The notes under the pieces are model-generated. The model was not told where the DNA came from and did no database searches. It was given only the letters and a program-made list of their open reading frames with translations. 64,000 nucleotides of DNA from Buxus sempervirens (Eukaryota > Streptophyta > Magnoliopsida > Buxales > Buxaceae): positions 18,626,366 through 18,690,365 of the forward strand of contig OX387185.1 in the NCBI GenBank assembly GCA_947561395.2, given 5' to 3'. Shown here one piece after another: positions 35,000 to 61,824 of this stretch. The position numbers and the translations under genes were made by a program. How positions within the stretch are numbered: position 1 is the first letter of the stretch; the number at the start of each line of letters is the position of its first letter.

Positions 35000-35600
35000 T
35001 TCTCTATCTCTAGGCCAGGGTGAACAAAGGTTCACTATCCCTAACCGCGATGAACCTCTCACTCTAACATTCCATACTTATAGTTGTGAAAGGGCTAGTT
35101 CACTACCCCCAAATTGAGGTGGACAGCATACATTACCTACCAATACTCACTTTTATGAAGAAGCTAGTTCACTACCTCCAAATTGAGGTGAACACTAGTT
35201 CACTACCCCCAATTGAGGTGAACCATATACATATATACATTACTTACCCATAATCACTTTGAGAGTGAGCTAGTTCACTACCCCTAAATTGAGGTGAACA
35301 CTAGTTCACTACCCTCAATTGAGGTGAATTGCACATACTGCCAACCAACATCAATCTTTGGGAAGAAGCTAGTTCACTACCCCCAAATTGAGGTGAACAC
35401 TAGTTTACTACCCCCAATTGAGGTGAACTGCATATATTACTTACCAATATTCACTCTTGTGAATGAGCTAGTTCACTACCCCCAAATTGAGGTAAACACT
35501 AGTTCACTGCCCCCAATTGAGGTGAACCGCACATGTTAATTGCCAATATCACTTTTGGAGAAGGAGCCAGTTCACTACCCCCCACATTGAGGTGAACTGC
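35000..35600 (-). repeat. Minisatellite, AGTTCACTACCCCCAAATTG units
   Basis: Around ten copies of AGTTCACTACCCCCAAATTG followed by AGGTGAACAC and longer spacers, partly as higher-order units of about 110-120 bases (for example 35163, 35272, 35375, 35470). This is the reverse of the repeat at 7345-7740 and clearly longer here. Confidence 0.88.
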
Positions 35601-41010: not shown

Positions 41011-42213
41011 TACTGATGAGACTTCCATTGCTACTTTAGCTACTTTTATGGCTAGTCAGTATAGCCTTGTAAATGCAGTTCGTGATTGGCAGGGGGAGTT
41101 CCGTTTACCTCAGGAGGGAGTTATCCGAGTAGCCAAAGTTCAGGTAGAGCCTGATTTGATCCAGAGGATCAGGGAGAGACAATTGACAGATCCAGAGTTG
41201 ACTGCTACCAGGAAATTGTTGCGTGAGGGTTCTGAGACTGTGAGAGACTTCACTGATATGGATGGATTATTGAGATTTCAGGGTCGCATTTGTGTACCAG
41301 CTGATAAGGATATTAAGGCAGTGATTATGGTAGATGCTCACAAATCAAAGTATGCAGTGCATCCTGGCAGCACGAAGATGTATAGAAATTTGAGGGTAGT
41401 ATATAGGTAGTCAGGAATGAAGAAGGATATAGCAGAATTTGTGGCTAAGTGCCTGGTGTATCAGAAGGTTAAGGCAGAGCACATGAGACCAACAGGGTTT
41501 GCTTCAACCCCTACCCATTCCAGAGTGGAAATGAGAGCACATCACCATGGATTTTGTGAGTGGATTACCTCTTTCTCCAAAGGGGCATGATGCTATATGG
41601 ATGATAGTGAACCGATTGACTAAGTAAGCTCACTTTTTGCCTATTAGGATGAATCAACCACTTAATGCACTAGAGAGCTGTATGTACGGGAGATAGTGAG
41701 ATTGCATGGGGTGCTAGTATCCATTGTCTCTGATCGTGATCCTAGATTCACATCCCAGTTCGGGGAGTCTTTCCAGAAGGCCATGGGTACAGAGTTGAAG
41801 TTTAGCACTAGTTACCATCCTCATACCGATGGACAGTTAGAGAGGACCATTCAGACGCTTGAGGATATATTGAGGTATTGTGTTCTTTATTGGGGAGGTA
41901 ATTGGAGTAAGCACCTACCTTTGGTAGAGTTTGCCTACAATAACAATTGTCAGGTGAGCATTCAGATGGCACCATACGAGGCATTGTATGGTAGAGCATG
42001 TAGATCACCAGTTTGTTGGGAGGAAGTTGGTGAAAGGCAATATTTGGGTCCTCAGTATGTGTAGGACAGTGTTGATTTGGGGAAATTGATCAAACAGAGA
42101 TTATTGAATGCTCAAAGTCGCCAGAAGAGTCATGTGGATACAAGGCGGCGAGATCTGAAATTTGAGGTTGGAAATAAAGTATTTATTAAGGTATCACCTT
42201 TCTGTGGTATAAG
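41011..42213 (+). pseudogene. Chromovirus integrase remnant
   Basis: Continues the 28925 element after the solo LTR: linker (FMASQYSLVNAVRDWQGEF), the integrase zinc-binding region (HPGSTKMYRNLRVVY), then the catalytic core with [18 protein letters not shown] and [17 protein letters not shown], and [20 protein letters not shown]. It matches the integrase of the complete element at 57.1-57.9 kb. The chromodomain end is absent because the Ogre-like element begins at 42214. Fossil with several breaks. Confidence 0.88.
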
Positions 42214-44513
42214 TGTAGACACCCCAAAATTGCACGATTTTTGATAAACCTTGAAGGAGAGAAATATTTTATTGGAATTTTCAATTCTTAATATTGGGTT
42301 TAAAATCCTTAACCCATTTGAATCCAAAACCACAAAGGAAAAGGTCCAAATTCAATCTTTTGCGCAAAGTCAAACTTTTTTTGTTGACTTTTATTGACTT
42401 TTTACCCCAAAAAATGAAATATTTTTTAAGGCAAGATTTCAAGATAATTTTTCCTGGTAATTAGGTTTATAGCAATGTTATTGCATAAATGAATTTTTTG
42501 AGCCTTTAAATCTTGACAAATACCTTGGTATTAACATTTTGAATCTTTTTACCAGACCTGAAAAACCGAAATTTAGTCTTGAACTGGAAAGTTGACTTTT
42601 TATTCACTTGGAATTTGGGTCTGGAACTATTTTTAATGGATTCAAATTGTTGGGGGGGGGGGTGTTTGCTTATTTACATGTAATATCTTAAGTAAATGAA
42701 GATTAAAAAATACAAGGACATTTACTTAAATGATATTACATGTAAATAAGTATTGCCTGTGCAGGTAAGGGTCAAGGCTATGCAGAATTTGTGCAGACAG
42801 GCCATTTTGGTCTTGTCTGCATTTGGTATGCAGTCAAGGCATGATGGCATTTGGTATGCGGTCAAGGCATGACCGCAATATATATGCAGTCACGCGTAAT
42901 TTTGAACGAATTTGCAATTTGCTCGATTTTTGAGCCTTATTTACACTCATACCTCTCTCTAGGAGATGCACTCTCCTCTTTTTACCCTTCGTGGTTTGTT
43001 AGATTTACTCTAACTCAAGTTTTAAAGCTAAGTTGGAACATTCTAGAACCTTATTTTGGCATACCCCTATGACCAATCATGCCCCTGGGTTTGCCAATAA
43101 ATAGAGAGCCTTACCTCAAGCAAAGGGTTGAGAATTGAAGCTAGAAGAGCTCTAAGTGAAGAAGGGAACCCTTGCCTCTCTGCTTTTTCAAATCCAGTTA
43201 AGTCTCTCTTCATTTTTATTTTTTGTTTTAAAATCTAGGATTATTTAGTTCTTCTATTTTTTCTGTAGAATAAGGCCTGTGTATGGTTGTAACCCCAAAC
43301 CTAAATCCAAGTATCTCAAGCATCTTCTCTAGCCGTAAAACGTGAAGAGAGATCTAGGGGAAAGGAGCGCAAGAATGGATTTTTAGGGTAGACTCCTATG
43401 TGTTGTAATCTTTGATATGTGTATTTTGAATGCTCTGGTTAGGTTATGTGATTGTTTATTTTTGAAATATGGAGGAATATCATGGATCTATGCTGTTCAT
43501 AGCATCAGATCTCCTTTTCCTCCTAGAGATGTTGGTTTTCAAAACAACTACACCCACCACATTGTTTTCTTTCTTTTGGTTATTATTAGTCTAGGATTTT
43601 GGATCTACCATGATTAAGATGGTAGATCTAAAATCAAAAGCCTTAAAGTAACCTCTAGGGTTTCATGAGGTGATTTTTGAGTTGTTTTAATTTTTGAGAG
43701 AAGATTCTATGGTTTAAACTCTCCCTTTTTGATGTTTTTCATCAACATGGGTGTATCAAGTTTAGATCTCTTAACTAATGAGAAATCTGGACCAGATCTG
43801 TACCCTAGAATTGTTTAGATTTATTCTTCAATATTATGAGGTAATTTGTATGTTGTTTTAATCTTTGAGAGAGGATCCTATGGTCTAAAGTCTCACTTTT
43901 TGATGTTTTTCATCAACATGGGTGTATCTGGTTTAGATCTCTCAACTAATGAGAGATCTGGACCAGATCTTTACCCTAGATTGTTCAGGTTTATTCTTCA
44001 ATATTTTGTCAAAAGATTTTTAACTTTTATTATGTAGTTCCAAGATTTTAAGGATTTAACTTAAAGCTAGTTTTTCAAGTTTTTACTCTAGGTTTGTTTT
44101 CTTTATCTTGATTTTACTCAATCATGAAACCCTAGAAATGGTGTATTCATAGGAAGGATCCAGAATTAATTGGATCATTTATATGGAGAAAGCCATACAT
44201 CTTTTATTCTTTTACTTTTGATTTGGTTTTTATTAGCAAGCCTTTTTCAAAACATGAACAATACCTGGCAACCAACTCGTGTGGATGAATGGGGGGTGCC
44301 TAACACCTTCCCCTATTCATAACCTAATCTCCTTACCCATCTTTGGTTTTTTATTTTAAAGTAGAGTTATTTTTACTCTAGTTTTGCCCTTTTGTATTTT
44401 TTTTGATTATTTTGGTGTCCATTCACACCTAAAATTGAATGGTGGCGACTCCTTGATTTATTGAGCCCGTGTGATGATTATGAAGTCATTGAATTGATTT
44501 TCCATGTCTCACA
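42214..44513 (+). mobile_element. 5' LTR of the Ogre-like element
   Basis: 2.3 kb, from TGTAGACACCCCAAAATTG to TCCATGTCTCACA, immediately followed by the primer-binding site. It shares start, end, the AGCCGTAAAACGTGAAGAGA block (near 43330) and GTGTCCATTCACACCTAAA (near 44415) with the solo LTR 1153-2961. A nearly perfect inverted repeat lies at 42669-42750, after a G-run of about eleven. A direct repeat with TGATGTTTTTCATCAACATG occurs at about 43730 and 43900. Confidence 0.9.
42669..42750 (+). repeat. Inverted repeat in the Ogre-like LTR
   Basis: Arm 42669-42698 begins CTTATTTACATGTAATATC and pairs with arm 42719-42750, ending GATATTACATGTAAATAAG, with a small offset in the middle and a loop of about 20 bases. 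One arm is recognisable near 1100-1135 and 32615-32645 in the family X LTRs. Confidence 0.85.
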
Positions 44514-44515
44514 AC

Positions 44516-44533
44516 TGGCGATTCTGTTGGGGA
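44516..44533 (+). promoter_or_regulatory. Primer-binding site, Tat/Ogre type
   Basis: TGGCGATTCTGTTGGGGA, two bases after the LTR end. From memory, Tat/Ogre elements have TGGCGAC...CTGGGGA here, matching a tRNA-Arg 3' end; the exact tRNA was not checked. Confidence 0.75.
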
Positions 44534-46380
44534 CTGTGGATTTAAGCCATGTTTTGTGTATTTGTTCATATTTTGTTTTTATTTTGAATGCTTGCTGTTT
44601 TGTTTATTTTATTTTGGCGTGTTTGATGTATTTTAAATCTGATTTGTATGATTAGAAACTCATAAGGATAGGTTATGTATGTATTGCTTGGTTGTGTTTA
44701 GAATCATGTTTAGGGGCTTTATCTTATCACACATGCTTACATGCTGTAATTTTATGATAATAGGCTTTGCTTTGGGTGTTTAATGCTATGTTTTGATCAT
44801 GAAAATTATGAGTATGAAATCTGGAAGTTTAGTGGGTATTTTGAATTTTTCAAGCATGTTTTCCATGATTAATTGTTTTTTGTGCAACATGATAACATGC
44901 TTATGTGATCTTTCTTGGTATATAATAATCATGAGCATGCTTAGGTGTCTTGGTTACCTTGTTTATTTGTGCTTATTTATTTTCAATATGATCTCCATAT
45001 ATGCCTTGGTGAATGTATATATGCTTGGCTATGAAAAAGAGTGGCAAGGGGTTGGGACGTTGTGAATGTTTCTTTTATTTCAAATGCACTTGAGCACTTT
45101 AAATCTTTTAAACAGCCTACACATAACCTATAGAAAGTTGAACCAGAATGTGTGTAGCTTGGCGCAACGAGGTCGTTACTTTGGAAAGCGAAAGTGAAAA
45201 CATTCACCTTAGAACTTTGAGCTAATGATGTGATGATATTGTGGATCTTTGATTTTGGTCATCACTAGGCTTGAGATCTAAGTTGTCATTAAGTCAAAAC
45301 CCAAAACCCCTAAGCTTGAAGGTGGAGAAACACGTTTTTGGCTAAAGTAAACAATTACAATGGGGAAATGGGTTTGTAATTGAGGGAAGGCCGGTTGCAT
45401 GGTTCACAAGCCCAAGGTATGATATGAATACCATATTAAAGGTAAACACATGGTAACAAGGTAATATCACTTTTTTAATTATCTTCATATCATGTAAAGT
45501 AAGTGCCATGGCGTCCATATGTTTGGGATGGAATTTTTCCCAATGAGGTCTATATCCTAAGATTGGTGTAGCTTATAGGAAGAGTTTTTAACTCTTCTCA
45601 GAAGTCACCATATAGGAGGCAACCAAAAGTACAAAATCCATGAATATGGTGTCTAATTTTGGGGAGAACATGTACCCTTATGAGCATTCATGCATTTTTG
45701 TAAATATAGCGTCAAAGTCCACATTGGGATAGTTTAGAAGCATCTCAATGGTAAACAATATATTTTGATGAACAATCAAAGCAATCAAATCGATTGGAAA
45801 ACAAAAAAATTTGAAATCTATCTGTAATCCGCACTTGTTATGCGGATTTAACCTTACCGCATTTTATCTGCGGTCATAGCTTGACTGCATTATATATGCC
45901 GTCACAGCTAAATTGCACTCAATATGCGGTTTACGGACATAATTGAATTCCATCAACTTTTGCCAACAAATTTGGTTCCTTTAACCTTTAAGTGATATAA
46001 ATAGATGATAGACAATTCAATAAGGGTAAAGGGCACCCAAATTCTTCTAAATTCACGTAAATCAAAGGGTTAAGCTCATTTTGGGGAATTTTACCTAATG
46101 TGAACATGTAACTTAACTCAATGAATGGAAGGGATAATGGAAAAATGAGTTTGAATCAAAATATACTTCAATTGAACCTGAAACCACATCAATGTTGCAA
46201 ATCATATTCTTGAAGTGCATTCTAATAGGTGAATAAGGAAAGAAGATTTCAAATCATTCTAATTTCCAAGGTTTGATAAGAACAATCCAATTTAAAATTT
46301 TGTTCTTTAATAAGAAATTTCCAAACATAAAAAAAAAACTTTTCTTAAAGAATTAAGTGATTGTCAAACCATAGGTATTT
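44534..46380 (+). other. Ogre-like leader, non-coding as far as seen
   Basis: No convincing reading frame. It holds GCTTGGCGCAACGAGGTCG near 45158, a stretch I associate with Tat/Ogre leaders, and AT-rich sequence otherwise. A GCGGT-type short repeat (GCATTTTATCTGCGGTCATA and variants) lies at 45835-45935. Confidence 0.6.
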
Positions 46381-47299
46381 TGAGAACCTTAGAATCTCAA
46401 ATGGGACACTTGGAAGCCATTAAATTCCAAGCAAAAAATTTTAAAAATCAACTTCCTTAATGCAACTTGAGTTTCTTTTTCAACTCAAAAGTCTTAAAGA
46501 AGATTCAAAATTGTCATGGGCCTCTTAAAGCCTTTGAATTTCAGATTTTCTTCAAAATTTCCATGGGCCTCTGCAAGCCTTTGAATTTCAGATTTACTTC
46601 AAAATTTCCATGGGCCTCTGCAAGCCTTTGAATTTTAGATTTACTTCAAAATTTCCATGGGCCTCTGCAAGCCTTTGAATTACAGATTTACTTCAAAATT
46701 TCCATGGGCCTCTGAAAGCATTTGAATTTCAGATTTTCTTCAAAATTTCCAAGGGTCTCTGAAAGCCTTTGAATTTCAGATTTTCTTCAAAATTTCCATG
46801 GGCGTCTGAAAGCCTTTGAATTTCAGATTTTCTTCAAAATTTTCATGGGCCTCTTAAAGCTTTTGAATTTCAGATTTTTTATTTCATAGGCCCTTAGAAG
46901 ACTGGGTAATTCCATCTAACCCTTCATAGGCTCCTGAAAGCCTGCGTAATTTCAGGAGGCTTTGGAAGCTTTAATTCCAAATCCATAAGCCCTTGGAAGC
47001 TTGAGTAATTCCAAGACACTCTGTGATTTGCCTAAAATCTTTTATTTTAGGAATTTCATATCTTGTGGGACATGTTGGAAGCCCTAGAATATTCCAACAA
47101 ATTCTTTGGATGGTTCTTTTTGTACCAACCAATTCATAAGCCCTTAGAAGCTTGCGTAATTCCAAGAAATTTTCATAGGCCTAAGGAAGCCTACGTAATT
47201 CCTTAACTCATAGGATCTCTGAAAGCCTGAAATTTCAGAATTTATCTTTTGGGCCATCTATAAGCTTCTGAATTATAGACACATATTTTGGGCCGTCTA
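46381..47299 (+). repeat. Hairpin-repeat array in the Ogre-like leader, part 1
   Basis: Repeated units of about 47 bases at 46510-46890 (CATGGGCCTCTGCAAGCCTTTG, written here to its first 20 or so bases), then more diverged units. Many units fold: 46409-46431 CTTGGAA/TTCCAAG; 46711-46733, 46758-46780 and 46805-46827 TCTGAAA/TTTCAGA; 46931-46958 CTCCTGAAA/TTTCAGGAG; 46961-46981 TTTGGAA/TTCCAAA; 46992-47015 CTTGGAA/TTCCAAG; 47073-47099 TGTTGGAA/TTCCAACA; 47182-47205 TAAGGAA/TTCCTTA; 47257-47279 TCTATAA/TTATAGA. The loop stays close to GCCTnTGAA or GCnTnnGTAA. Confidence 0.88.
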
Positions 47300-50271
47300 T
47301 GTAAAACCCTGAATTTTCACCTAATAAATAAATAAATAATAAATAAAATAAAATATGAGTTAAGTCCTAGTTAAAATAAAAAGTGAAGATTTGGAGGATA
47401 ATTAATTCAAATAAATTCTAAGTTGAAAATAAAGAAAGAATTTTAATGAAATTAGCCTAAAAGAATAAAAAGGGTATTTTGGTAATTTTCAGAAAAGGGT
47501 AATTAGTAAATAGATTATCAAATAATAATTAGAATTAGAAAATAGAAGAAAACAAATTATTTTGACAAGTTAGAAATTAATAAAAGCCTAAAAGTGGGAA
47601 AAAGGGTAATTAGGAGATTTCACGTCTTAATTTGGAGAAAATAAGGTTTAAAGTGATAGAAATGTTTTATTAAATATTTTGCACGAAAATAGGTTATTTT
47701 CATGAGTTTAGATAATAAGAAACTTAATTAGGATTGTTTAAGTAGAAAATAGAAGGTGGAGAAAAAGTAGGAATTAAATTAGGAGGATTAGACATTAACT
47801 AGACCATAGTTGGGTTAATCCAAATTAAATTAGCCAATTAGGGTTTGTTTAGGATTTCTAAAGCCTAGTATAAATAGGAGACTAAGGTTAGACAAGAAGG
47901 AATTTTCGTGGGTTTCTTATGGAGAGAAAAGAGGGAGAGAGAGGAAGGAGGTTTCTAATGGAGGTGTCTGACCAGCCACCATCAAAACGCGATCGGGTAA
48001 AATCCGTACGGTGGATCGCCTTCAAATTTGGAGGTTTTGTTTGTGACTGATGGAACTACAATGTGAACGGTGGAGATTTAAATTGGAAGAGTCTAGGTTG
48101 GTGCGTTTGGGAGCAAACGTCTGGTCCAGAATTAGAAGGTGCAATGGAAGAAGGATTTAGCGTATAAGGCAAGTAGTAACCCTTGGAAAACGTGAGGAAT
48201 TGCATGATTTTGATTTCTGTGATTTCATATGGTTAGCATGGATTAGACGAAACTGTATTTACATGGAATCAAGTTGCTTATATTTTCATGATTTGTATTC
48301 TTGATGGATTTATCAAATTTATGAAGAAAGTTTAGTGGGATTATGTAAATAAGGGTAGGAGGGTATTTAATTTATAAAAATTACTCTAGAAGGCTCTAGG
48401 TAAGTTTCAGAAAGTTTGAAGATTAATTTAGACCAAGAAAACATAAAGCAAAAGCATAAGAATCCGAAATTGGAAAATCTGGAAAATTCTGTTTTAAATT
48501 GCACGAGCGCCTAGGATCGCCCAGCACAGTAGAGGTAGGCGCTCTAAGTAAAATTTGTAGATTTTGGGGATTTTGTAATTCGAATAAATACCCAATAATT
48601 CTTATGATTAGTTAAGCATGTTAGCATCTTTATAAAGACCTAATTAAGTTATAAAAATTATAAAATTAATTTGGAAAGAATAAGCAATAAATTGAAGGTT
48701 ACAATGAAAGGATTGTTTATAAAAGAGTCAAAGGGTATGGATATTGCTAGAAATAATACTACTGAAATTTATAGCTTATAAATATCTTTTAAACTTCATT
48801 CCAGGTCTGTAGAATATGCTGGAAAAATAAAATACAGAAAATTCAAATAGAAACTAGCTTAGGTGCTAAAGTAGGACATTGGATTCTAATAAAAGGGGGT
48901 AATAAAGAAAACTCTAAGTAATAATGGATTTACTTTATTTTGAGCTTTATATAGGAATATGGGCTACTGGAATTGCATAAACTCAGATTTTACCGGATTT
49001 ATGATACTTGAGTTTTATTTTGATTATAATTGGAAGAATTGCATAGGTTATTCTGAAAATGCCTATAATTGGATTTGTTATGATTGAATCATGGATTTCA
49101 CATGGAATGGAATACTTTGGTATGGATTGGTATGTGGTATGATATTGTTCTCTTTAATTTTACGGTTGGGTGATACGGCTTCTGTGGTAGAGTTTGATAC
49201 TATCTTTTACGGCAGAGATGGGTAATCCTCTGTGTAGAGATGTGTAATCCTTTACGGGTAAAAGTGTGTATGCCTCCTACATTAGCGTGTCCTCCCGTAT
49301 GTGGTTTTATCGTGGTTTGTGTCAGTGGGCTTAGCTGTATATGGATCCATAGTTTTGGTTGGTTAGCTAAGTGGTATTTAGTTTGGGTTGATTTACTCCT
49401 ATATTGTGAGCGCGCTTCCCTTTGCAAGTTAGTTTGCTCTAGGAGGGTCCTATGTCTGGAGGGACACCCCGGTGAGCCGCTGGTGATTCCCTGTACATGT
49501 GGATAAGCGACCACACTCCATGTATTGATTCAGGTGCTGCATGCTGGTGGTAAGTCCAACTTTGTGGAGTTCGTGCGCAATAAGTCGGTGACTACGGCTC
49601 TTGCCTAAGCTGCGCTGCATGGGGCTTGAGTATCATCAAGTAGCACTGCCCCTAAGCCGCACGGTGGAACAGCATTTAGTCGAGTGTCATTTCAAATACT
49701 TATCATCTTTGTGAGTCCTGCAATGGCACGTGTTTTATCGCTTTGTCGGTTTTACCTCGTTAACATCAAGAGACTGGTATTTATACATGATCATATGTTT
49801 CATCGCCTTATTTGTAATTGCCATGAATAACTTGGATTTCTCGTCTTATCGTTGATTAATCGAATACCTCATGACTATTTGCTTATATTGGACTGTTTCA
49901 AATTGCATACACCTGCTACTTGCTGAGATGTAAATCTCACTCCGTTTTCCCCTATTTTTCAGGTTTCTTGGAGAGATCGCGAAGATGGGGTTTTAATTTG
50001 ATGGGTAGTATTAATGCCACATGTTGATTAGATAAACTTTACTGTAAACAGAATTGATATTATTGAATAAAGAATTGTTTTTATTGGCCACCATAACTCT
50101 GATGTAATTGATTTATAAATTTTAAAATTATTGTGAATCTTGGTTGTATCTGACCCCAGCTTCGTGGTAACACCTCGGGTTTGGTTGTTGAACCGGACTT
50201 GGGTTGTTACAGTAGCGAACCGGGTTTGGGTTGGGTGCCGGTTTGCACTGACCCGGGTTCGGGGCGTTACA
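47300..50271 (+). mobile_element. Solo LTR, chromovirus-like, sister of 19106-25339
   Basis: 3.0 kb, TGTAAAACCCTGAATTTTC to CGGGTTCGGGGCGTTACA; duplication GTCTA at 47295-47299 and 50272-50276. TATA box 47869-47877; GC-type donor-like GCAAGTAGTAACCC from 48169; GCGCCTAGG/GCGCTC patch near 48505-48545; palindrome 49340-49351; hairpin TGAGAT-GTAA-ATCTCA 49924-49939; CAG 49960-49962. It matches 19106-25339 (minus its insert) from end to end; the stretch 49190-49530 is nearly identical to 20995-21330. It entered the hairpin array of the Ogre-like leader, and one copy of its duplication is itself part of a hairpin stem. Confidence 0.94.
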
Positions 50272-50640
50272 GTCTATAAGCCTCTGAATTATAGACACCT
50301 ATTTTCGGCCGTCTGAAAGCCTCTGAATTTTAGACACAACCTTTTTGGGCCATTTGAAAGCTTCTGAATTTCAAACATCAATTCTTTTGAGCCGTCTAAA
50401 AGCCTCTGAATTTTAGACACAACCTTTTTTGGCCGTTTGAAAGCCTTTGAATTTCAAACATCAATCTCTTTGGGCAGTCTAAAAGCCTCTGAATTTTAGA
50501 CACAACCTTTTTGGGCCGTTTGAAAGCCTTTGAATTTCAAACATCATTTCCTTTGGGCCGTCTAAAAGCCTCTAAATTTCATACATTTCTTATTCTTTAG
50601 GACCTTTGGAAGCCTTTAAATTCCAAACATTCTTTTAGAT
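50272..50640 (+). repeat. Hairpin-repeat array in the Ogre-like leader, part 2
   Basis: Resumes directly after the solo LTR. Alternating units of about 35 bases: GTCTATAA/TTATAGAC (50272-50296), GTCTGAAA/TTTTAGAC (50311-50335, one wobble), TTTGAAA/TTTCAAA (50353-50375), GTCTAAAA/TTTTAGAC (50394-50418), GTTTGAAA/TTTCAAAC (50435-50459), again GTCTAAAA near 50476 and GTTTGAAA near 50518, and TTTGGAA/TTCCAAA near 50605. The loop is GCCTCTGAA or GCCTTTGAA in nearly all, and TTTGGGCC usually precedes the stem. Confidence 0.92.
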
Positions 50641-50878
50641 GATCATTTGTACCAACCACTTCTCTTCATAAGGTCAATTGCGACCAAAACAAAGAAAAGA
50701 AAAAAAAATAAAAAATAAGAAAAGCAAAAACAAAAACAAAAAAATTGTAATTCAAACTTATGTTCACCCAAACATGCATACATGCATCCATAAATTGTGT
50801 GAGTTTGAGTTGAATTATGCACTAATTGTGTTTCTTTTTCTCTTCAAATCCAGGTTTTTTTTTGTGGCAATCATTGCT

Positions 50879-51873
50879 ATGCACCAAAGTCCATACTTGC
50901 TAAGATCCAAAGTTGCCAGAATGAATCCGGAGAACCAATCAACTGTATCTGATCAAGACTTTCATCAGCTTCAAGAGCAGGTGGCCGGGATGTCTAAGCT
51001 GTTGGAAACACTGCTGTATAATCAAGCCCAAGCCCAAGCAGCTCAAAACCAAGCTTCTTCATCTCAACAAGCACCACCGTCAGAACCTCAAATACCAATT
51101 CCACCTCTATCACAAGCCAATACCCCACCACAACCTGAATTCCACCAACCAATTCCTGAACCTATACTGATCGGGGAGGAGGAAACTGAATCAGTAAAGG
51201 AAAAAGAAAAGGAAAAAATGAGGGATGAGATGGAAAAGAAGTTCATGAATAAGTTGGAGAGGATACAAAATTAGTTGTGGGAAGTGAAAGGGATGAATGC
51301 ATTTGGAGGCACAAATTTCAAAGACCTGTGCCTATACCCTGATGTAAGTCTACCGGCCAAATTTAAATGCTTAGATTTTGAAAAATATGATGACACGAGC
51401 TGCCCAATGAGCCATTTGAAGTTATACTATGGGGCTTTATGCCAGTTTGGCCGGGATGATGGCATACTGATTCAGCTCTTCCAGAGGAGCTTAATTGGAG
51501 CTGCTTTGAGGTGGTTTGCCACCTTGGATCATGGAAGGATAAGAAGGTGAAAGGACTTGGCACATGCCTTCTTGGCATAATACAGGTTCAACTCTGAGAT
51601 TATAGCAGATAAGTATGACATGATGGGAATGATGAAGAGAAATGATGAGACCATAAGGCAATATGCTAAGAGGTGGAGGGAGTTGGCTCCACGGGTCAGG
51701 CCATCCATGGGAGAACCAGAAATGATTTCAATTTTCGTCATGACATTGGGGCAGCCCTTCTACAATCACCTTGTGGGTCAGACCACTACCAGTTTTGCTG
51801 CCCTAGTGCAAGTGGCAGACAGAATTGAAGATGGGATCAAGTATGGAAAAATAGCTGATTACTCTGCTGGGTT
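50879..51873 (+). pseudogene. Tat/Ogre-type gag, N-terminal and core part (fossil)
   Basis: Gag of the Ogre-like element. It starts MHQSPYLLRSKVARM, then a coiled-coil-like stretch, a Gln/Pro-rich linker and a charged helix. The core motifs are PAKFKCLDFEKYDDTSCP, MSHLKLYYGALCQFGRDDG, SLIGAALRWFATLD and, further on, IRQYAKRWRELAPRVRPSMG, the Tat/Ogre Gag pattern (…CPxxHLxxY…LTGAAxxWY…). A CCAG acceptor-like site at 50851-50854 precedes the start. The frame is broken in about two places, and the chromovirus 51874-60629 lies in its C-terminal part. Confidence 0.88.
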
Positions 51874-52045
51874 TGTAAAACCCCGTTTATTTTCAGGTTT
51901 TATGAAAAAAAAAATAATAATAATTACAATAATAAATATCTAAACTAATAAGGTGTGGGTGTAGGGGTTTTAGTGGGCGAGCTCACACAAAATCAGAGTT
52001 AAAAGGGGTCGTCGAGCAGCAAGCATCCAAGCATATTGCGGAAGG

Positions 52046-52054
52046 TATAAATAG
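52046..52054 (+). promoter_or_regulatory. TATA box of the chromovirus 5' LTR
   Basis: TATAAATAG, about 170 bases into the LTR; the 3' LTR has the one-base variant TATAAAAAG at 58620-58628. Confidence 0.65.
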
Positions 52055-53202
52055 TTTAAGAAATTAGGTTTTGGGTTTTTGCCCTGAATACGCGTATATT
52101 CTACTGAGAAGGTTGCGGCTGCGGCTTTTGTTTAGGGTTCTTCGAGAAAAGGAGTTGGAGAGGTTTTGGTTTTGGTGAGAGAGTCGAGCTAGGGAAGACT
52201 TATTGCCAGTAAGTTTTTGCTAAGAAGAAGTTCGGAAAGGCTTTCCTCCTTCAGAAAACCTCCGCTCGACCAGAGCAAGCAGACGGCTGAAGTGATTGGG
52301 GATTTTCTGATTGGGGATTTTCTGGGTTGCCGATTGCCAAGACTTGGAAGCATAAAAAGGTGAGTGGCACTGTTTTAAAACCTGGTTTATGTTATTCGTA
52401 GATTTTGTTTCAATGAATGCATGGTTATCGAATGAATTATTCACTGAGTTTCTGGGCGAAGACAGTTCGAAGGGTTTTTTGTATAACAAATTGGGGATAA
52501 TTGAAAAGTATGTTAGATTAAATTCAAATTAGGTTTGAATGCGTTCTGGGGGTATTAGGAGACTAGAGAAGTGGTTACAGACTGAAAAATTTCGGCCAGA
52601 GTTGAAGATTTGGATTTAACAGAGACTTGAAAAACACAGTGGGTATCCGCCCACTGGCGCCCACTTCGGAGAGTAGGCGCATGGAAAAATGGACTTGGCG
52701 CCCTTCTCGCGCCTATCCCGCGCCCTTCTCGCGCCCACTTAAATTGGATGCGCCTATCCCGCGCCCTTCTCGCGCCTTTAATCGGTTATTTATCGGCTTG
52801 GGTTTAGCTTCCCATGGATCTTTGTTAAGCTTAGTAATGTGATGGTATGTGTTTATTGGTGTAATTGCATGGCCTTGTGTGTTGCCACGACCAGTGTAGA
52901 GCAGCCAGATACCCTGAGTAGGCGTGGTTGTCAGTGCCGATACCCGGAGTTGGCCGGCATTGGATGACGATACCCTGAGTAGGCCGTCATTTTAGAGTGT
53001 CCGATACCCTGAGTAGGCCGGAACTGTGTACATGGAGGTGTGGAGTGTCTACTTGGCATGTAAATTAATCAATGTAACCATATGCATGACATTGACCTTG
53101 TTTTGTGTTGTTATCGGAAGTACGTTGTTTTAAATTGTTGGTTATTTGTCGAAGCATGTCTTATAACTGTGTTAACTATTTCTGCATGCATGTGTCACTC
53201 GC

Positions 53203-53220
53203 TGAGATATTCGTATCTCA
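53203..53220 (+). other. Conserved LTR hairpin, TTCG loop
   Basis: TGAGATA, TTCG, TATCTCA: perfect 7-bp stem with a TTCG loop (UUCG in RNA). Identical copy at 60258-60275 in the 3' LTR. It lies 25 bases before the CAG at 53245-53247. Confidence 0.75.
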
Positions 53221-53246
53221 TTCCCTCGTTGTTGTTTTGTTTTTCA

Positions 53247-53324
53247 GATCTTCGTGGTGAGGCGCCTACGGGGGTAGATCCGACTGACACATGTAGGGAG
53301 GAGGATTATTGCTACCGTCCTTAG
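53247..53324 (+). other. Short open tail after LTR acceptor-like site
   Basis: 25 codons plus stop: starts DLRGEAPTGVDPTD, ends REEDYCYRP. The 3' LTR copy (60302-60379) is open over the same length with three residue changes. Confidence 0.6.
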
Positions 53325-53576
53325 TCGTAGGTTGGTTAGTCTTAAACTTTGTTAAATTGAACTTGTGTGAATTGTAATAAGGTAGTAAATTAGAACCATT
53401 TTGATGTATTTGAAGATGCTATGAATTGCCTGGATGAGAGTTGTAAATATTGCACTCTGATATGATATAAATTGTGTGTGATTATCCAGCGATCACCATT
53501 ATTGAGATCCTTACCTAACCCCTGGGAGACGTGTTATATCTTTAATGAAAAACACAGATCCGGGGCATTACAGAGA

Positions 53577-53587
53577 TGGTATCAGAG
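53577..53587 (+). promoter_or_regulatory. Primer-binding site, initiator tRNA-Met
   Basis: TGGTATCAGAG, four bases after the 5' LTR, complementary to the 3' end of plant initiator tRNA-Met, the usual primer of this group. Confidence 0.93.
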
Positions 53588-53726
53588 AGATTAAAGATGG
53601 AATTAGAGATTCCTAGGTAGTACGACCTTAGGAGACCCTGGGAAATAACGTGTGTACGCTAGATAGAGCCATGAGGTTTAGAAGAGAGTTCCTAACTAAT
53701 GTGGTGTTTGTTGTTTACAGGAAATC

Positions 53727-54944
53727 ATGGCTGGCAGAGGCCGACGCCCGAGAGCTATGGAGGAGGATATACCGCAGGAGCAGCCCCTTGCACCTCCACG
53801 AGGAGATCTGCCTGCAGTTGAGGATATTTGGGCTGCTGTTGGCTCACTTGCCAACCTCCTTGCCTTGGAGAGGGAGGAGAGGATGAGTCACATGGGAAAT
53901 GGGAACGGGAATGGCCATAGAAATGGTCATGGAGCAGATGTGGATCAGCAGCGGAGGGGAGAGGAGTTGTCCTTGAGGGACATTGATCAGTTTAGTAAGT
54001 TGACCGCCCCACCTTTCCATGGAGTTCCAGATCCCTTAGAGGCAGAGAGCCGGGTGGCCAGAATTGAGCGTATGTTCGATACCATGGACTGCCCAGAGGA
54101 CAGGAAGGTGCGATTAGCCACTTTCACGCTAGAGGGCGAGGCCCAACATTGGTGGCAGTCTTTGAGGAGGCGGACTGCAGAGGGGATTCAGATGACATGG
54201 GACCAGTTTAGGCAGGTCTTCTACGATCAGTATTTCTCTGCTGAGGTGAGGCTGCAGAAGGAGAGAGAGTTCATGGACATCTCTCAGGGTTCCTTGACCG
54301 TGGCGCAGTATGAGGCCCGATTCGCAGTTCTTTCCCGATTTGCGCACCACATCATACATGACGAGCAGAGACGCACTCAGCATTTCGAGAGAGGGTTGAG
54401 GGCTGATATCAGGCGTATGGTCTCAGTACTGATGTGCACTAGGTATTCTGACCTAGTTGGGAGAGCACTACGGGTCGAGAGGGAGATCCGAGACTCAGGA
54501 GTAGAGCAGAGCAGAGGGAGAGTGCAGCCTAGTGTTCCAGAGCCACGGAGGATTCCAGACAGGGACAAAAGGCCGAGGCTTGATACTGGAAATTTTGGGT
54601 CTTATGGAGAGAGGGATAGGAGGAGTTATGGAGGCTGTTTCAGCTGTGGCAGATTCCATATTCCGGGTCCCTGTGTAGCACCACCAAGAACCTGTTTTAG
54701 ATGTGGTCAGCACGGTCACCGAGTGGCAGGATGCCCACACCCGACCTCGTATCAGCTGCTTAGGACCGTCAACACAGTTTCAGGGGACAACCAGTCAGAT
54801 AATGCTCCACGATTCCAGTATCCCAGGCCGGCACCAGCATTACCCGCACCGCCAAGATCACAGGGTCAGAGTTGCAGTGGATATCAGGGTAGGCAGGCAC
54901 CCCAGAGGCAGCATGCACCACCTATACGCCCGCAGCAGCAGTAG
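53727..54944 (+). CDS. gag: Gag of the Tekay-type chromovirus
   Basis: 405 codons, open throughout. It forms the capsid and nucleocapsid of the element's particle. The N-terminal part is acidic and low-complexity. The retrotransposon Gag domain lies at about residues 85-230 (MFDTMDCPEDRKVRLATFTL, QHWWQSLRRR, TWDQFRQVFYDQYFSAEVR, QYEARFAVLSRFA). The nucleocapsid end has one irregular Cys cluster (CFSCGRFHIPGPC) and one CCHC zinc knuckle (CFRCGQHGHRVAGC, C-x2-C-x4-H-x4-C) near residues 310-340, then a Pro/Gln-rich tail. The start is the first ATG after the primer site in a long frame beginning MAGRGRRPRAMEED. A protease frame follows at once. An intact gag with a broken pol means only that the element could at best act with help. 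Confidence 0.9.
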   Translation: MAGRGRRPRAMEEDIPQEQPLAPPRGDLPAVEDIWAAVGSLANLLALEREERMSHMGNGNGNGHRNGHGADVDQQRRGEELSLRDIDQFSKLTAPPFHGVPDPLEAESRVARIERMFDTMDCPEDRKVRLATFTLEGEAQHWWQSLRRRTAEGIQMTWDQFRQVFYDQYFSAEVRLQKEREFMDISQGSLTVAQYEARFAVLSRFAHHIIHDEQRRTQHFERGLRADIRRMVSVLMCTRYSDLVGRALRVEREIRDSGVEQSRGRVQPSVPEPRRIPDRDKRPRLDTGNFGSYGERDRRSYGGCFSCGRFHIPGPCVAPPRTCFRCGQHGHRVAGCPHPTSYQLLRTVNTVSGDNQSDNAPRFQYPRPAPALPAPPRSQGQSCSGYQGRQAPQRQHAPPIRPQQQ

Positions 54945-54950
54945 ACGAGG

Positions 54951-57900
54951 GTGTATGTTGTGGCAGCACAGGAGGATGAGGCAGAGAGGGAACTTTCAGA
55001 GGAGGCTCGGGAGGAGGAGCCGAGTGCATCCCAGCTTGTCGGAGGTATTCTTTTTATACATGGTAGATCGGCTATATGTTTGTTTGATTCGGGTGCCTCT
55101 AGATATTTTATTGCTCCACCTTGTGCATTTCATATTGGTTTGATTCCTGCCACACTTGAGTCTGAGTTGCTTGTACACACACCATTGGGAGAGACGACTA
55201 GAGTACAGACGGTATTTAGAGACTGCATGATCCAGTTAGGTTCCTTAGAGTTGTCAGGGGACTTAGTGGAGTTGAGTTTTGGGGAGTTCGATGTGATTTT
55301 GGGCATTGATTGGCTGTTTAGGCATCATGTGAGTATAGATTGCCATCGGGATACTATTATGGTATGCCAACCCGATCAGCCTATGCACTGTTTCCGGTGT
55401 GAGGGACTAAGTACACGGATCAGTTTGGTTGCTTCCATTGAAGTTAAGGAGGCAGAGTCTGGGGCACCTAGTCTCTCTAGTGTGCCTGTGGCATTAGAGT
55501 TTGAGGACATCTTCCTTGAGGACTTGCCGGGCTTACCGCCATCTAGAGAGGTCGAGTTTAGTATACGACTCTTACCTGGTACGGCACCGGTGTCCAAACC
55601 TCCATACCGAATGTCACAACCTGAGAACCAAGAGATGAAGAAGCAGTTAGATGAACTGGAAGCAAAGGGTTTTATTAGGCCCAGTGTGTCACCATGGGGT
55701 GCACCAGTCCTGTTTGTCCAAAAGAAGGACGGGTCGATGCGGATGTGTATAGATTACCGCCAGTTAAACCAGGTCACCATTAAGAATAAGTATCCATTGC
55801 CTCGGATTGACGATTTGTTCGATCAGTTGAGGGGAGCATCTTTGTTTTCTAAGATCGACCTCAGATCGGGATACCATCAGTTGAGAGTAGCGCCTGATGA
55901 TATAGAGAAAACGGCTTTCCGCACACGGTATGGGCATTACGAGTTTTTGGTTATGCCATTTGGGCTGACTAATGCCCCGGCTATCTTCATGAATCTTATG
56001 AATCGTGTATTTCATCCTTACTTGGACAGTTTCGTGGTCGTGTTTATTGACGACATTTTGGTGTATTCCCAGAGTAGAGAGGATCACATGCAGCACCTCA
56101 GGACAGTGTTACAGACATTGAGAGAGCACCAACTGTAGGCAAAATTCAGTAAGTGTCAGTTCTGGTTGAGAGAGGTGAGTTTCTTGGGGCACGTGATTTC
56201 TGGGAACGGTATAGCAGTGGATCCAGCCAAAGTGCAGGCTATTGCAGAGTGGCCTAGACCTTCATCTGTGATAGAGATTCGGAGTTTCTTGGGGATGGCT
56301 GGATATTACAGGAGATTCATAGAGAATTTTTCACGAGTAGCAGCACCTTTATCCAATCTCACTAAGAAGGCAGTGAAGTTTGAATGGAGTGATAAGTTTG
56401 AGACCAGTTTTCAGGAGTTGAAAAGTAAACTGTCTACAGCTCTAGTTCTGATTGTTCCATCAGTGAGTGAAGGATTTTCTATTTATTGTGACGCATCACG
56501 AGTAGGATTGGGCTGTGTTTTGATGCAGCAGAGGCGGGTAGTAGCATATGCTTCGAGGTTACTATGTCCTCATGAGAAGAATTATCCTACCCATGGTCTA
56601 GAGTTGGTAGCGATCATGTTTGCACTCAAGTTATGGAGGCACTACTTGATGGGAGCTTCATTTGAGATATTCTCAGATCACAATTGCTTGAGGTACATAT
56701 TTTCTCAGAGGGAGTTGAATATGAGACAGGAGATGGATGGACCTCCTAAAGGACTATGATTTTACTCTTCATTACCACCCTGGTAAGGCAAATGTGGTGG
56801 CAGATGCTCTGAGCCGTAGAAGTGTTTCTCAGGAGGAGGTGGCCACATTAGCTAGCTTTATGGTTAGCCAGTGCACTATATTTGATACAGTGGTAGACTG
56901 GCCAGGAGAGTTTAGCACCCACGGTCATGGCTTGATTTTGTCACGAGTTCAGGTGGAGCCTGAGTTGATACAGCAGATTCGTGATAGACAGTTGACTGAT
57001 GCGGAGTTGACACGTACCAGGGAGTTAGTATGAAAGGGTGATGAAGCAGCTAGAGATTTTGAGATCAGGGATGGACTGCTAAAATGTAAGGGTCGTATTT
57101 GTGTTCTGAATGACAATGAGATCAAAGGAGTGATACTTGATGAGAGTCACAGGTCTAGATATGCAGTTCACTCGGGTGGCACCAAGATGTATCGGAACTT
57201 GAAGGGGGTATATTGGTGGTTGGGTATGAAGAAAGACATTGCGGGATTTGTAGCTAAGTGTCTCATATGTCAGCAAGTAAAAGCAGAACATCGGAGACCT
57301 CCAGGATTAATGAGGCCGTTACCAGTGCCTGAGTGGAAATGGGAGCATATCACAATGGATTTTGTGAATGGGTTACCACCTACAGCCAAAAATCACAATG
57401 GTATATGGGTAATTGTCGATAGGCTGACCAAATCCGCTCACTTCTTGCCTTATTCGACTACTCAAAATCTAGCATCATTGGTTGATTTATATACGCGGGA
57501 GATAGTCCGGTTGCATGGGGTCCCAGTGTCTATTGTGTCAGATAGGGATTCCCGGTTCACATCTCACTTTTGGCAGTGTTTCCAGGAGGCCATGGGTACC
57601 AAGTTGAGTTTCAGTACCAATTTCCATCCGCAGACTGATGGTCAGTCCGAAAGGACTATCCAGACCTTGGAGGACCTGTTGAGGTGTTGTGTTTTGGATT
57701 GGGGTGGCAGTTGGAGCAAGTATTTGCATCTGGTGGAGTTTGCCTACAATAATTGCTACCAAGCTAGCATCCAGATGGCACCGTATGAGGCTTTGTATGG
57801 TAGAGTGTGCATATCACCAGTATGCTGGGTTGAGATTGGGGAGAAACAGTATTTTGGGACAGAGATTATTCAAGATAGTATGGAAAAAGTAAAACTCATC

Positions 57901-58401
57901 AGGCAACGGATATTAACTGCACAGAGTCGTCAGAAGAGTTATGCAGATACTAGACGACGAGAGCTGAGATTCGAAGTGGGAGATATGGTCTTTTTAAAGG
58001 TTTCCCCATCCAAAGGAATTAGGAGATTTGGGAAGAAAGGGAAATTATCACCTCGGTTCATTGGTCCATATGAGATAGTGAAGGAGATTAACCCAGCAGC
58101 ATATCGGTTGGCTTTACCGGGTCACTTGGAAGGGGTGCACGACGTGTTTCACATTTCCATGCTACGTAAGTACATTTCTGATCCCAGTCATGTGATAGAT
58201 TCTGAACCCTTGGCGATACGGAAGGATTTGACGTATGAAGAGAGGCCAGTGCAGATTTTGGATCGACGTGAGCAGATCCTTCGCACCAAAGTGATACCCT
58301 TGGTGAAAGTATTCTGGCAAAACCATTCCACTGAAGAATGCACTTGGGAAAGTGAGGAAGAGATGAGAAAGAAGTATCTAGAGTTATTCGATTCCTCTTA
58401 A
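54951..58401 (+). pseudogene. pol: Pol of the Tekay-type chromovirus (fossil)
   Basis: Domains in order: aspartic protease near 55.1 kb ([13 protein letters not shown]); reverse transcriptase about 55.6-56.1 kb ([40 protein letters not shown], and the catalytic FIDDILVYS); RNase H about 56.4-56.8 kb ([31 protein letters not shown]); integrase about 57.1-58.0 kb with the HHCC zinc-binding part (CLICQQVK) and the D,D,E core ([40 protein letters not shown]); and a C-terminal chromodomain about 58.2-58.4 kb (FWQNHSTEECTWESEEEM). All domains can be recognised; there are about four breaks in the reading frame. The region at 37.9-42.2 kb belongs to a related but older element. Confidence 0.94.
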
Positions 58402-58402
58402 G

Positions 58403-58440
58403 GTAAATTTCGAGGACGAAATTTTTGTAGGGGGGGAGAA
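58403..58440 (+). promoter_or_regulatory. Pre-LTR conserved block and polypurine tract
   Basis: AAATTTCGAGGACGAAATTT followed by TGTAGGGGGGGAGAA directly at the 3' LTR start. The purine run is the plus-strand primer site; the GAGGACGAAATTT block is common before the 3' LTR of plant chromoviruses. Confidence 0.9.
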
Positions 58441-60629
58441 TGTAAAACCCCGTTCATTTTCAGGTTTTATGAAAAAAAAAAACAAAATAAATAATAATTA
58501 CAATAATAAATATCTAAACTAATAAGGTGTGGATGTAGGGGTTTTGGTGGGCGAGCTCACACAATATCAGAGTTAAAAGGGGTCGTCGAGCAACAAGCGT
58601 CCAAGCGTATTGTGGAAGGTATAAAAAGTTTAAGAAATTAGGTTTTGGGTTTTTGCCCTGAATACGCGTATATTCTACTGAGAAGGTTGCGGCTGCGGCT
58701 TTTGTTTAGGGTTCTTCGAGAAAAGGAGTTGGAGAGGTTTTGGTGAGAGAGTCGAGCTAGGGAAGACTTACTGCCAATAAGTTTTTGCTAAGAAGAAGTT
58801 CGGAAAGGCTTTCCTCCTTCAGAAAACCTCCGCTCGACCAGAGCAAGCAGACGGCCGAAGTGATTGGGGATTTTCTGATTGGGGATTTTCTGGGTTGCCG
58901 ATTGCCAAGACTTGGAAGCATAAAAAGGTGAGTGGCACTGTTTTAAATGGTTTATGTTATTCGTAGATTTTGTTTCAATGAATGCATGGTTATCGAATGA
59001 ATTATTCACTGAGTTTCTGGGCGAAGACAGTCCGAAGGGTTTTTTGTATAACAAATTGGGGATAATTGAAAAGTATGTTAGATTAAATTCAAATTAGGTT
59101 TGAATGCGTTCTGGGGGTATTAGGAGACTAGAGAAGTGGTTACAGACTGAAAAATTTCGGCCAGAGTTGAAGATTTGGATTTAACAGAGACTTGAAAAAC
59201 ACAGTGGGTATTCGCCCACTGGCGCCCACTTCGGGAAGTAGGCGCATGGAAAAATGGACTTGGCGCCCTTCTCGCGCCTATCCCGCGCCCTTCTCGCGCC
59301 CACTTAAATTGGATGCGCCTATCCCGCGCCCTTCTCGCGCCCACTTACCATCGAGTGAGCGCATACCCTAATTTTAGTTAAAATACTATCCGCCCACCTC
59401 GCGCCTACCTCAGGAGGTGAGCGCATAGTTCACTTTTCTTGCTGAATTTCATAATTGAGTAAACCAATGGAGATTTTGATGCTAGAAGGTCTTCGATCAC
59501 TTAGCAAAGTACTTGTTTAGGACATTAGAGACAAAATTATTTATGAGAACATTGAAGATAGATTCTGGAATTTCGTAAGAGCTTCCGAGGTAGATGTAGG
59601 GCAACATTTTAGGTGATGTTCTGGATACCCAACACTGGGGCTTTTAATTTAGTTCTTTTTGGATTATACACTGTACTTGATTGAGATTTATTAAACCCTG
59701 TTTTCTTGATGGCAAGTTCTGAATTATGTTGCAAGGATTATTCACTTGTGTGAGTTGATGTTCTGGTTGGAACACTTGTGTGAGTTGATGTTCTGGTTGG
59801 AACAACTTGTGATGTGTACTAAATGCGGAGTTTTAATCGGTTATTTATCGGCTTGGGTTTAGCTTCCCATGGATCCTTGTTAAGCTTAGTAATGTGATGG
59901 TATGTGTTTATTGGTGTAATTGCATGGTCTTGTGTGTTGCCATGACCAGTGTAGAGCAGCCAGATACCCTGAGTAGGCCTGGTTGTCAGTGCCGATACCC
60001 GGAGTAGGCCGGCATTGGATGACGATACCCTGAGTAGGCCGTCATTTTAGAGTGTCCGATACCCTGAGTAGGCCGGAACTGTGTACATGGAGGTGTGGAG
60101 TGTCTACTTGGCATGTAAATTAATCAATGTAACCATATGCATGACATTGACCTTATTTTGTGTTGTTATCGGAAGTACGTTGTTTTAAATTGTTGGTTAT
60201 TTGTCGAAGCATGTCTTATAACTGTGTTAACTATTTCTGAATGCATGTGTCACTCGCTGAGATATTCGTATCTCATTCCCTCGTTGTTGTTTTGTTTTTT
60301 AGATCTTCATGGTGAGGCGCCTACGGGGGTAGATCTGACTGACACCTGTAGGGAGGAGGATTATTACTACCGTCCTTAGTCTAGTAGGTTGCTTAGTCTT
60401 AAACTTTGTTAAATTGAACTTGTGGGAATTGTAATAAGGTAGTAAATTAGAACCATTTTGATGTATTTTAAGATGCTATGAATTGCCTGGATGAGAGTTT
60501 TAAATTGTGCACTCTGATATGATATAAATTGTGTGTGATTATCCAGCGATCACCATTATTGAGATCCTTACCTAACCCCTGGGAGATGTGTTATATCTTT
60601 AATGAAAAACACGGATCCGGGGCGTTACA
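58441..60629 (+). mobile_element. 3' LTR of the chromovirus
   Basis: 2.19 kb, TGTAAAACCCCGTTCATTTT to GATCCGGGGCGTTACA. Carries the same parts as the 5' LTR: donor-like GTGAGTGGCACTG from 58928, CpG-rich GCGCC block 59210-59430, CCGATACCCTGAGTAGGCC repeats 59955-60080, hairpin 60258-60275 and tail 60302-60379. A 29-base direct repeat with GTGTGAGTTGATGTTCTGG lies at 59756-59805. Confidence 0.95.
60302..60379 (+). other. Short open tail after LTR acceptor-like site (3' LTR copy)
   Basis: 25 codons plus stop, starting DLHGEAPTGVDLTD and ending REEDYYYRP. Same frame and length as the 5' LTR copy. Confidence 0.55.
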
Positions 60630-60634
60630 GGGTT

Positions 60635-61170
60635 AAACTAGGAAGCTTCTACCACTTTTTCTACACAGAAAAAGGAGAATGGTAATGGAAGAAGAAAGAA
60701 TGAAGAAAGAAAGGAAACAGAAGTAAACATGGTGCAGTCACTTGGAAAACCGCTTCAAATCAATGTCCATCCACCTCTTATCAAGCCAACCCATCAAGTT
60801 CCTTTGTTGCCTATCCAAATTAATGTCCCTTTCGCACAGCTTGCCAAAAAGGAGAATGAAGTAAGGAAGAGAAGGGAATTCTCAAAATTGCCTATGAGAC
60901 CATCTGAACTTTTGCATACCTTACTTCAGAAGGGTTATATGACTTTGAAGTTGCCAAATCTGCATGCAAGCAAGGGGAAGAATTATGATTCATCTGCAAT
61001 CTGTGAGTATCATATGAGCACTCCAGGGCATACCATTGATTGTTGCTAGGCCCTAAAGCATGCAATCCAAGATTTGTTGGATAATAACTCCTTATCATTC
61101 AATTCAGTCACATCCATCCCACCTACCGATAACAATGGGGCAGGTAGCTCAAATGCAGTAGGGGTGATTT
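60635..61170 (+). pseudogene. Tat/Ogre-type gag, C-terminal part (fossil)
   Basis: Continues the Ogre-like Gag after the chromovirus. It carries RPSELLHTLLQKGYMTLKLP and the modified zinc-finger motif ICEYHMSTPGHTIDCC followed by ALKHAIQDLLD, the Tat/Ogre pattern C-x2-H-x4-GH-x4-C then xLKxxIQDLI. No protease motif follows. Confidence 0.85.
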
Positions 61171-61215
61171 TTTTCAGGAAAAAGAAGATTTGACCTTTCT
61201 CAACTTATTGCTCCA

Positions 61216-61824
61216 GTGGGTATCACAGTCCGGGTTTATTTTGAAAAAGAAAATGAATGGGGTCATGTGAAGAAAGAGACTCACATAGGGGCAAATTTAA
61301 ATATCAAAGAAAGGAAGGAAGAGGAAGAAGAGAAGCTAAAGTTGAAAGAAAATGAAATGACAGGTGAAAGGGCAGAGGAAGTGCAAACAATTCCATTTGA
61401 GCAGTTTGGGCAAACAAATGGCCTAGCACTGGATGTTGAACAAGAATTCAGTATGGACAATAATGATTGTCCGAAGGGTATGGAATCACTCTTCATAGAA
61501 GAAGAAAATGAAGCAAAGGTAATTGAAAAAAGAAAATCCCAAGAAAAGAAAGAAGAAGATTCAAATGAAAAGAGTGAGGCCAGGTTTAAGCTTCCATTGA
61601 TTGACTGGGCTGCTATCCAGATTCCATATCAAGGAATGTCATTTCTTTCAGAGACTGAGCACAACACCCCAGAGAAGGAGATCATCCCAAATCATGAAAT
61701 GAGAGGTTTGCCTCACTCAGCAGGAGAAAGAAATTTTTTTAAAAAGAAAGAGAAGTCAGCTTTTGCTTTTGAGAATTGGGGCAGTTTTCGAATTCCCATG
61801 TTCTCTGAAAAGAAACCCCTATAA
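61216..61824 (+). other. Open frame of unknown role after Ogre-like gag
   Basis: About 202 codons, Glu/Lys-rich, not recognised. The first half is charged and probably coiled coil (KERKEEEEEKLKLKENEM); the second half has less simple stretches: FKLPLIDWAAIQIPYQGMSF and FAFENWGSFRIPMF, two similar hydrophobic/aromatic blocks about 70 residues apart. It lies where the Gag-Pro part of an autonomous Ogre would continue. It may be a linker or an accessory frame of this family. Amino-acid bias follows the AG-rich DNA, so it could also be chance. Confidence 0.4.

Follow-up and report, generated by a model that had tools for sequence, protein, structure and literature searches.

The hairpin array and its host element

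We analyzed a stretch of 64,000 nucleotides from Buxus sempervirens (assembly GCA_947561395.2, contig OX387185.1, positions 18,626,366 to 18,690,365), here called the window, which looks like nested plant long terminal repeat (LTR) retrotransposon DNA, with labels given by eye. One of these elements, provisionally assigned to the Ogre/Tat type, carries an array of 27 hairpin units between its primer-binding site (PBS) and gag, with 18 units at 46403-47280 and nine at 50272-50628. The two blocks make up one array, split by a later solo LTR of 2,972 bases (47300-50271, + strand, ends TGTAAAACCC...GGGGCGTTACA; the solo-LTR reading was made by eye) that inserted within one hairpin, contains no units itself and lies outside the array. 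Its target duplication, GTCTA, is found on both sides at 47295-47299 and 50272-50276. An earlier sequence-only reading had described hairpins with differing, self-complementary stems in the leader of an Ogre-like element, extending over 46381-50640. The hairpins were recovered, including all eight arm pairs quoted there, which are present exactly, and so was their place in the leader, whereas the extent had to be revised from a continuous array to two blocks of units.

On the coding strand, each unit can form a stem of 7-9 base pairs (bp) closed by a loop of 7-11 bases (nine bases in 19 of the 27 units), with loops of the type GCCTYTGAA or GCCTRCGTAA. The stem is fully Watson-Crick paired (7/7) in 18 of the 27 units, and the other nine contain G-U pairs or mismatches. 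Among the stem types, each accompanied by its complement, are TCTGAAA, CTTGGAA, TTTGGAA, TGTTGGAA, CTCCTGAAA, TAAGGAA, TCTATAA, GTCTAAAA and GTTTGAAA, and many units have a GGGC-like box directly 5' of the stem. Units were anchored on the loop context together with at least 4/7 arm pairs, which yielded 30 candidates. The anchor demanded AA-G before the loop and A-T at the loop end, so that those columns are invariant by construction, and sites with fewer than 4/7 pairs were not kept. Three candidates (46431, 47015 and 47166, each 4/7 paired) that start in the right arm of a neighbor and have no loop motif were dropped, and the candidate at 46900, likewise 4/7 paired, was kept on account of its fitting box and loop end.

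All units lie on the + strand. The first, CTTGGAA/GCCATTAAA/TTCCAAG at 46403-46432, was found by inverted-repeat and unit search, and is preceded by a weak outlying hairpin, TTTGAGA/ACCTTAGAA/TCTCAAA, at 46373-46402 (covariance model expectation value (E) 0.017). Eight units at 46517-46875 form a 47-bp tandem repeat of TCTGAAA/GCCTTTGAA/TTTCAGA and near variants. More specifically, all eight have TCTGAAA or a one-base variant of it as the left arm; six have TTTCAGA as the right arm, and the other two differ from that by one base. The statement that the arms differ from unit to unit, made from the letters alone, is therefore true of the several stem types across the array and does not extend to these eight units. 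Seven of these 47-bp units (46516-46875) have an ATG immediately ahead of the stem, and in two of them, at 46704 and 46798, it opens a three-codon upstream open reading frame that ends in the stem. Nine further units with irregular spacing and differing stems occupy 46887-47280, with loops starting at 46900, 46940, 46968, 46999, 47081, 47150, 47189, 47225 and 47264. The nine units of the second block, located by tandem-repeat and inverted-repeat search, are 39-44 bp apart, and four of them alternate the stems GTCTAAAA/TTTTAGAC and GTTTGAAA/TTTCAAAC as an 83-bp dimer, which gives the array tandem periods of 47 bp and 41/83 bp. Within the array or at its margin, three more perfect hairpins have other loops: those at 46379 (the outlying unit), 46467 and 47031.

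The host element begins with a 5' LTR at 42214-44513 (+ strand, TGTAGACACC...CTCACA; ends and position read by eye), which sits in what looks like a chromovirus remnant. A tRNA-Arg-like PBS (TGGCGATTCTGTTGGGGA, 44516-44533, + strand) with three mismatches in 15 positions to an Arg-type PBS begins two bases after the LTR end. Since a match of equal quality (three mismatches in 15) occurs in at least one place in 22 of 100 shuffles, the PBS call leans on its position two bases past the LTR end; a tRNA-Arg-type PBS adjoining the LTR is typical of Ogre. A tRNA-Asp-type PBS was rejected as its single match, with three mismatches at 63202 on the - strand, is chance-like. The start of the gag frame, taken from the list of open reading frames, spans 50879-51872 on the + strand and contains three in-frame stops. 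When two gag pieces were compared with Pfam, one matched Retrotrans_gag at E 0.054, below the cut-off, and the other gave no match; a likeness to Tat gag is presumed. The frame is cut at 51874 by a second LTR element (51874-60629) with GGGTT on both sides. Past this insert (60630-64000), the single listed frame of at least 200 amino acids, 61168-61824, has no Pfam match and is followed by purine-rich DNA.

No 3' LTR of the Ogre/Tat-like element was seen within the window, and no reverse transcriptase was recognized in its visible part. The element may be non-autonomous or may extend past the window end, and the copy in the window is dead. Its provisional label is based on position, PBS type and the presumed Gag likeness. 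The names chromovirus, Del-type and solo LTR are likewise our presumption, given by eye, and no search named those elements. Elsewhere, 1537-2964 is about 72-74% identical to 43071-44516 in the 5' LTR region and ends where the PBS would begin; a self-comparison of the window found no likeness to the leader downstream of this copy.

Pair-preserving change and loop conservation

The two blocks contain 21 perfect inverted repeats (14 and 7; arm of at least 7, loop of 5-12), compared with a mean of 1.7 and a maximum of 6 in 300 dinucleotide shuffles. In 88 other stretches of the window of equal total size, the maximum was 5. A strict loop motif with the outer arms left free finds 19 sites on the + strand, all within the array and all with at least 5/7 Watson-Crick arm pairs, and none on the - strand, where a site would be an inverted loop. 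A covariance model (R1) built from the 27 units recovers them by construction; in a scan of the window, its best match outside the array and the outlier had E 0.11, with no convincing unit. A search of Rfam over 42200-51000 gave nothing at the gathering score and one sub-threshold match at 43694, outside the array (E 0.6).

In the alignment of the units (A1), 94.2% of the arm cells (178/189) hold standard pairs, and sliding the partner by 1-3 columns brings pairing down to 30-45%. Five of the seven stem pairs show changes on both sides, which is reached by 9 of 500 column shuffles. Double changes fill 30 cells, 25 of them of transition type, against a mean of 8.2 in the column shuffles, none of which reached 30 (0/500). 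Because tandem copies are related, independent change was also simulated on two trees, one built on every column and the other on the columns outside the arms, with 1000 simulations each. The 178 paired cells compare with simulated means of 147.8 and 143.7 (0/1000 each), the 30 double-change cells with 7.5 and 9.2 (reached in 1/1000 and 2/1000), and the both-side changes on one branch, 11 and 14, with 2.7 and 5.1 (0/1000 each).

Furthermore, when 630 column pairs were ranked against 60 simulated alignments, stem pairs 3, 6 and 7 took ranks 1, 2 and 4, with E of about 0.017, 0.05 and 0.48, so that two single pairs stand at about 0.05 or less. A shuffle test on the candidate set found 161 of 182 pairs against 117.2 expected (0/20000); this test and the smaller one on representatives reported below include some or all of the three dropped candidates. 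Neighboring stems differ at several pairs at once, as in TCTATAA/TCTGAAA and GTCTAAAA/GTTTGAAA. As a whole, the stems show pair-preserving change above both shuffled and tree-aware nulls.

The loop behaves differently from the arms. The four bases that open the loop show 84% identity between sub-arrays, or about 79% once the anchored base is set aside, compared with 50-51% for the outer arms, 52% for the box and 29-38% for the spacers, which bears out the near-constant loop of the sequence-only reading. Unit 50280, whose box lies beyond the solo LTR, was for that reason left out of these identities and of the box-loop counts given below (26 of 27 units used), and its upstream columns were entered as gaps in the ranking and tree tests. 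The loop and the stem shape are what persists across the array.

RNAalifold, unaided, recovers the same 7-pair helix. Folding z-scores for the + and - strands were -3.45 and -1.69 with 20 shuffles and -2.69 and -0.65 with 100 shuffles, and the pair probability of the hairpin was higher on the + strand in 19 of the 27 units and on the - strand in four. This preference of the hairpins for the coding strand is no more than suggestive.

The window also has other repeats with hairpins or palindromes. A different element, read on the - strand, carries at 35095-35597 a tandem hairpin repeat with the stem GTTCAC/GTGAAC and a loop near CTCAATTGGGGGTA; by eye, this stem is exact in six of the nine listed hairpins, changed by one base in two and unrelated in one. 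A relative on the opposite strand lies at 7300-7760, with three hairpins listed, so that this other element is present twice in the window. Since the repeat at 35095-35597 mostly keeps one stem, paired change is not common to every hairpin repeat in the window. A long, loosely periodic repeat around GGGTACCTTAGG at 33480-34700 contains 20 short palindromes, with no constant loop obvious by eye.

Possible origins and roles of the array

Paired change around a near-constant loop is what one would expect had the folded shape been of importance to the element. The reading we favor, and hold tentatively, is that the array is a hairpin array of the leader RNA, kept by pair-preserving evolution, in which the loop may serve as a repeated recognition site, with Gag/nucleocapsid as the likeliest partner. 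The RNA in question would be the 5' leader of an Ogre/Tat-like LTR retrotransposon, and the units of the array would have multiplied via tandem duplication. Over the ancestry of this copy, stem drift would have preserved pairing while the start of the loop stayed much alike, and the loop, shown on any stable stem, could then be recognized repeatedly along the RNA. The many copies might allow the element's own Gag/nucleocapsid to bind with high avidity for packaging or particle assembly, and the mismatches in this copy would represent later decay. A Gag/nucleocapsid site is favored by analogy, because of the position between PBS and gag, the conservation of the loop and the multiplicity of the units.

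Several observations weigh against this reading. All covariation evidence comes from the units of one leader copy, and it is uneven along the stem: pair 4 shows no covariation above the null (rank 62), pairs 1-2 are invariant, partly by construction of the anchor, and a column pair outside the stem ranks third (E of about 0.28). Further pair types number nine, which is reached by 98 of 500 shuffles, and the weaker shuffle test on five representatives gave 32 of 35 pairs against 21.4, with 179 of 20000 shuffles reaching it. In both blocks, the - strand reaches a slightly lower raw minimum energy (-245.6 vs -235.7 and -84.7 vs -82.9 kcal/mol), and local folding leaves eight of the 27 units, all with mismatched stems, almost unpaired. 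The stem mismatches comprise two G-U against four A-C or C-A and thus show no G-U excess; such a spectrum is as expected for neutral decay after the death of the element and also fits the absence of RNA selection. A degenerate pattern of one unit type had no matches in viral contigs and prokaryote genomes, a result of little weight for a plant element.

The chief alternative is that template switching at imperfect palindromes, whether in DNA replication or in reverse transcription, would repeatedly copy one arm onto the other and leave complementary stems without selection on RNA, to be spread by tandem duplication. Such a mechanism has been described for RNA hairpins (PMC8794818), and both the simultaneous difference of adjacent stems at several pairs and the mismatches without G-U preference agree with it. 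Template switching could thus yield part of the paired-change pattern without selection, and the paired change described in the sequence-only reading is borne out as an excess over shuffled and tree-aware nulls, but does not by itself prove selection. On its own, however, it leaves the conserved start of the loop unexplained (84% identity against 29-38% in the spacers between sub-arrays). No inverted loops were found on the - strand, though such loops are rare anyway, 25 of the 30 double-change cells are of the transition type that a stepwise route through wobble pairs would also yield, and in the repeat at 35095-35597 the hairpins stay mostly with a single stem. We regard template switching as less likely than the favored reading, though a substantial alternative. 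We consider it very improbable that the array has no function and reflects a palindromic monomer multiplied in tandem, in the manner of the hypervariable repeats known from Tat elements. The 47-bp and 41/83-bp tandem structure and the known tendency of Tat-lineage elements to carry tandem repeats would fit such an origin, but copying alone does not make new complementary stems, and the tree-aware nulls reject independent change.

Instead of packaging, the hairpins might control the translation of gag through ribosome shunting, internal entry or a barrier to scanning. The leader, with the solo LTR excluded, holds 78 ATGs ahead of the gag ATG, which makes plain scanning unlikely; the array ends about 250 bases 5' of the gag ATG, and, as noted above, all but one of the 47-bp units have an ATG directly ahead of the stem. 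This combination of ATG and stem is confined to the 47-bp sub-array, however, and we judge a translational role to be improbable. The functions put forward in the sequence-only reading (packaging, dimerization, translation control or small-RNA escape) are candidates only. Dimerization through loop-loop kissing is unlikely, as the loop GCCTYTGAA is not self-complementary. At 7-9 bp, the stems seem too short for Dicer and for stable cruciforms alike.

Each unit might also be an H-type pseudoknot, its GGGC-like box, directly upstream of the stem, being paired with GCCT, the opening four bases of the loop. This would give a box helix of 4 bp, a linker of 0-2, a 7-8 bp stem and a final loop that is mostly 5-6 long. 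Across 26 units, 94 of 104 box-loop positions are pairable with G-U allowed, compared with 53.2 for random boxes, and AAGC accompanies GCTT in two units and AGGC accompanies GCCT in two. Nevertheless, permuting the loops among the units gives a mean of 93.1, with 1642 of 5000 permutations reaching 94, and no box-loop column pair exceeded the tree null in the two registers tried, which leaves the second helix without covariation support. Moreover, AGGC also accompanies GCTT in one unit, the register was picked unit by unit, which favors pairing, and the boxes may pair with each other through their self-complementary GGCC, a pairing present in part of one fold. We find the pseudoknot doubtful. 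A similar degree of doubt attaches to a more elaborate form of the recognition-site reading, in which some 27 recognition modules with a near-constant loop, perhaps folded on the GGGC box as a pseudoknot, and with stems free to diverge so that some neighbors are unable to cross-pair, would act as a multivalent landing strip nucleating Gag assembly on the genome RNA.

For plant LTR retrotransposons, which make up a large part of many plant genomes, packaging signals are to our knowledge poorly characterized. About 27 natural variants of one hairpin in one leader amount to a ready-made covariation experiment, from which it can be predicted which bases are read (the loop) and which only hold the shape (the stem). 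The array is also a clean case in which selection for the shape of an RNA could be told apart from palindrome repair through template switching.

Relation to known repeats and structured leaders

An open-access literature search, with most subscription journals outside its scope, turned up no description of hairpin arrays in the leaders of Ogre/Tat elements. The published tandem repeats of Ogre/Tat elements lie downstream of gag-pol in the 3' untranslated region (PMC7004042; PMC6317226), and the terms 'hairpin' and 'secondary structure' have no occurrences in the text of PMC7004042. The array described here probably shares its lineage with these repeats, judging from position and PBS type, and like them is built of short tandem monomers, variable in length, within non-coding sequence of the element. 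In contrast to them, it lies upstream of gag, between PBS and gag, and consists of hairpins with paired change.

Two further systems offer partial parallels. In Ty1, a fragment of Gag has a major in vitro binding site within a 5' pseudoknot, for which a role in encapsidation could not be demonstrated (PMC4974528). Both cases involve a structured leader RNA of an LTR element, but the Ty1 site is one compact domain, whereas here about 27 similar hairpins form an array. Template switching during replication, which can make and repair stems and has been studied in microRNA and rRNA genes (PMC8794818), likewise keeps complementarity through several simultaneous changes; the hairpins in the Buxus element differ in their tandem arrangement and conserved loop, with no inverted loop found. 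What sets the array apart from the known Ogre/Tat tandem repeats is its position in the 5' leader together with hairpins that change in a paired manner.

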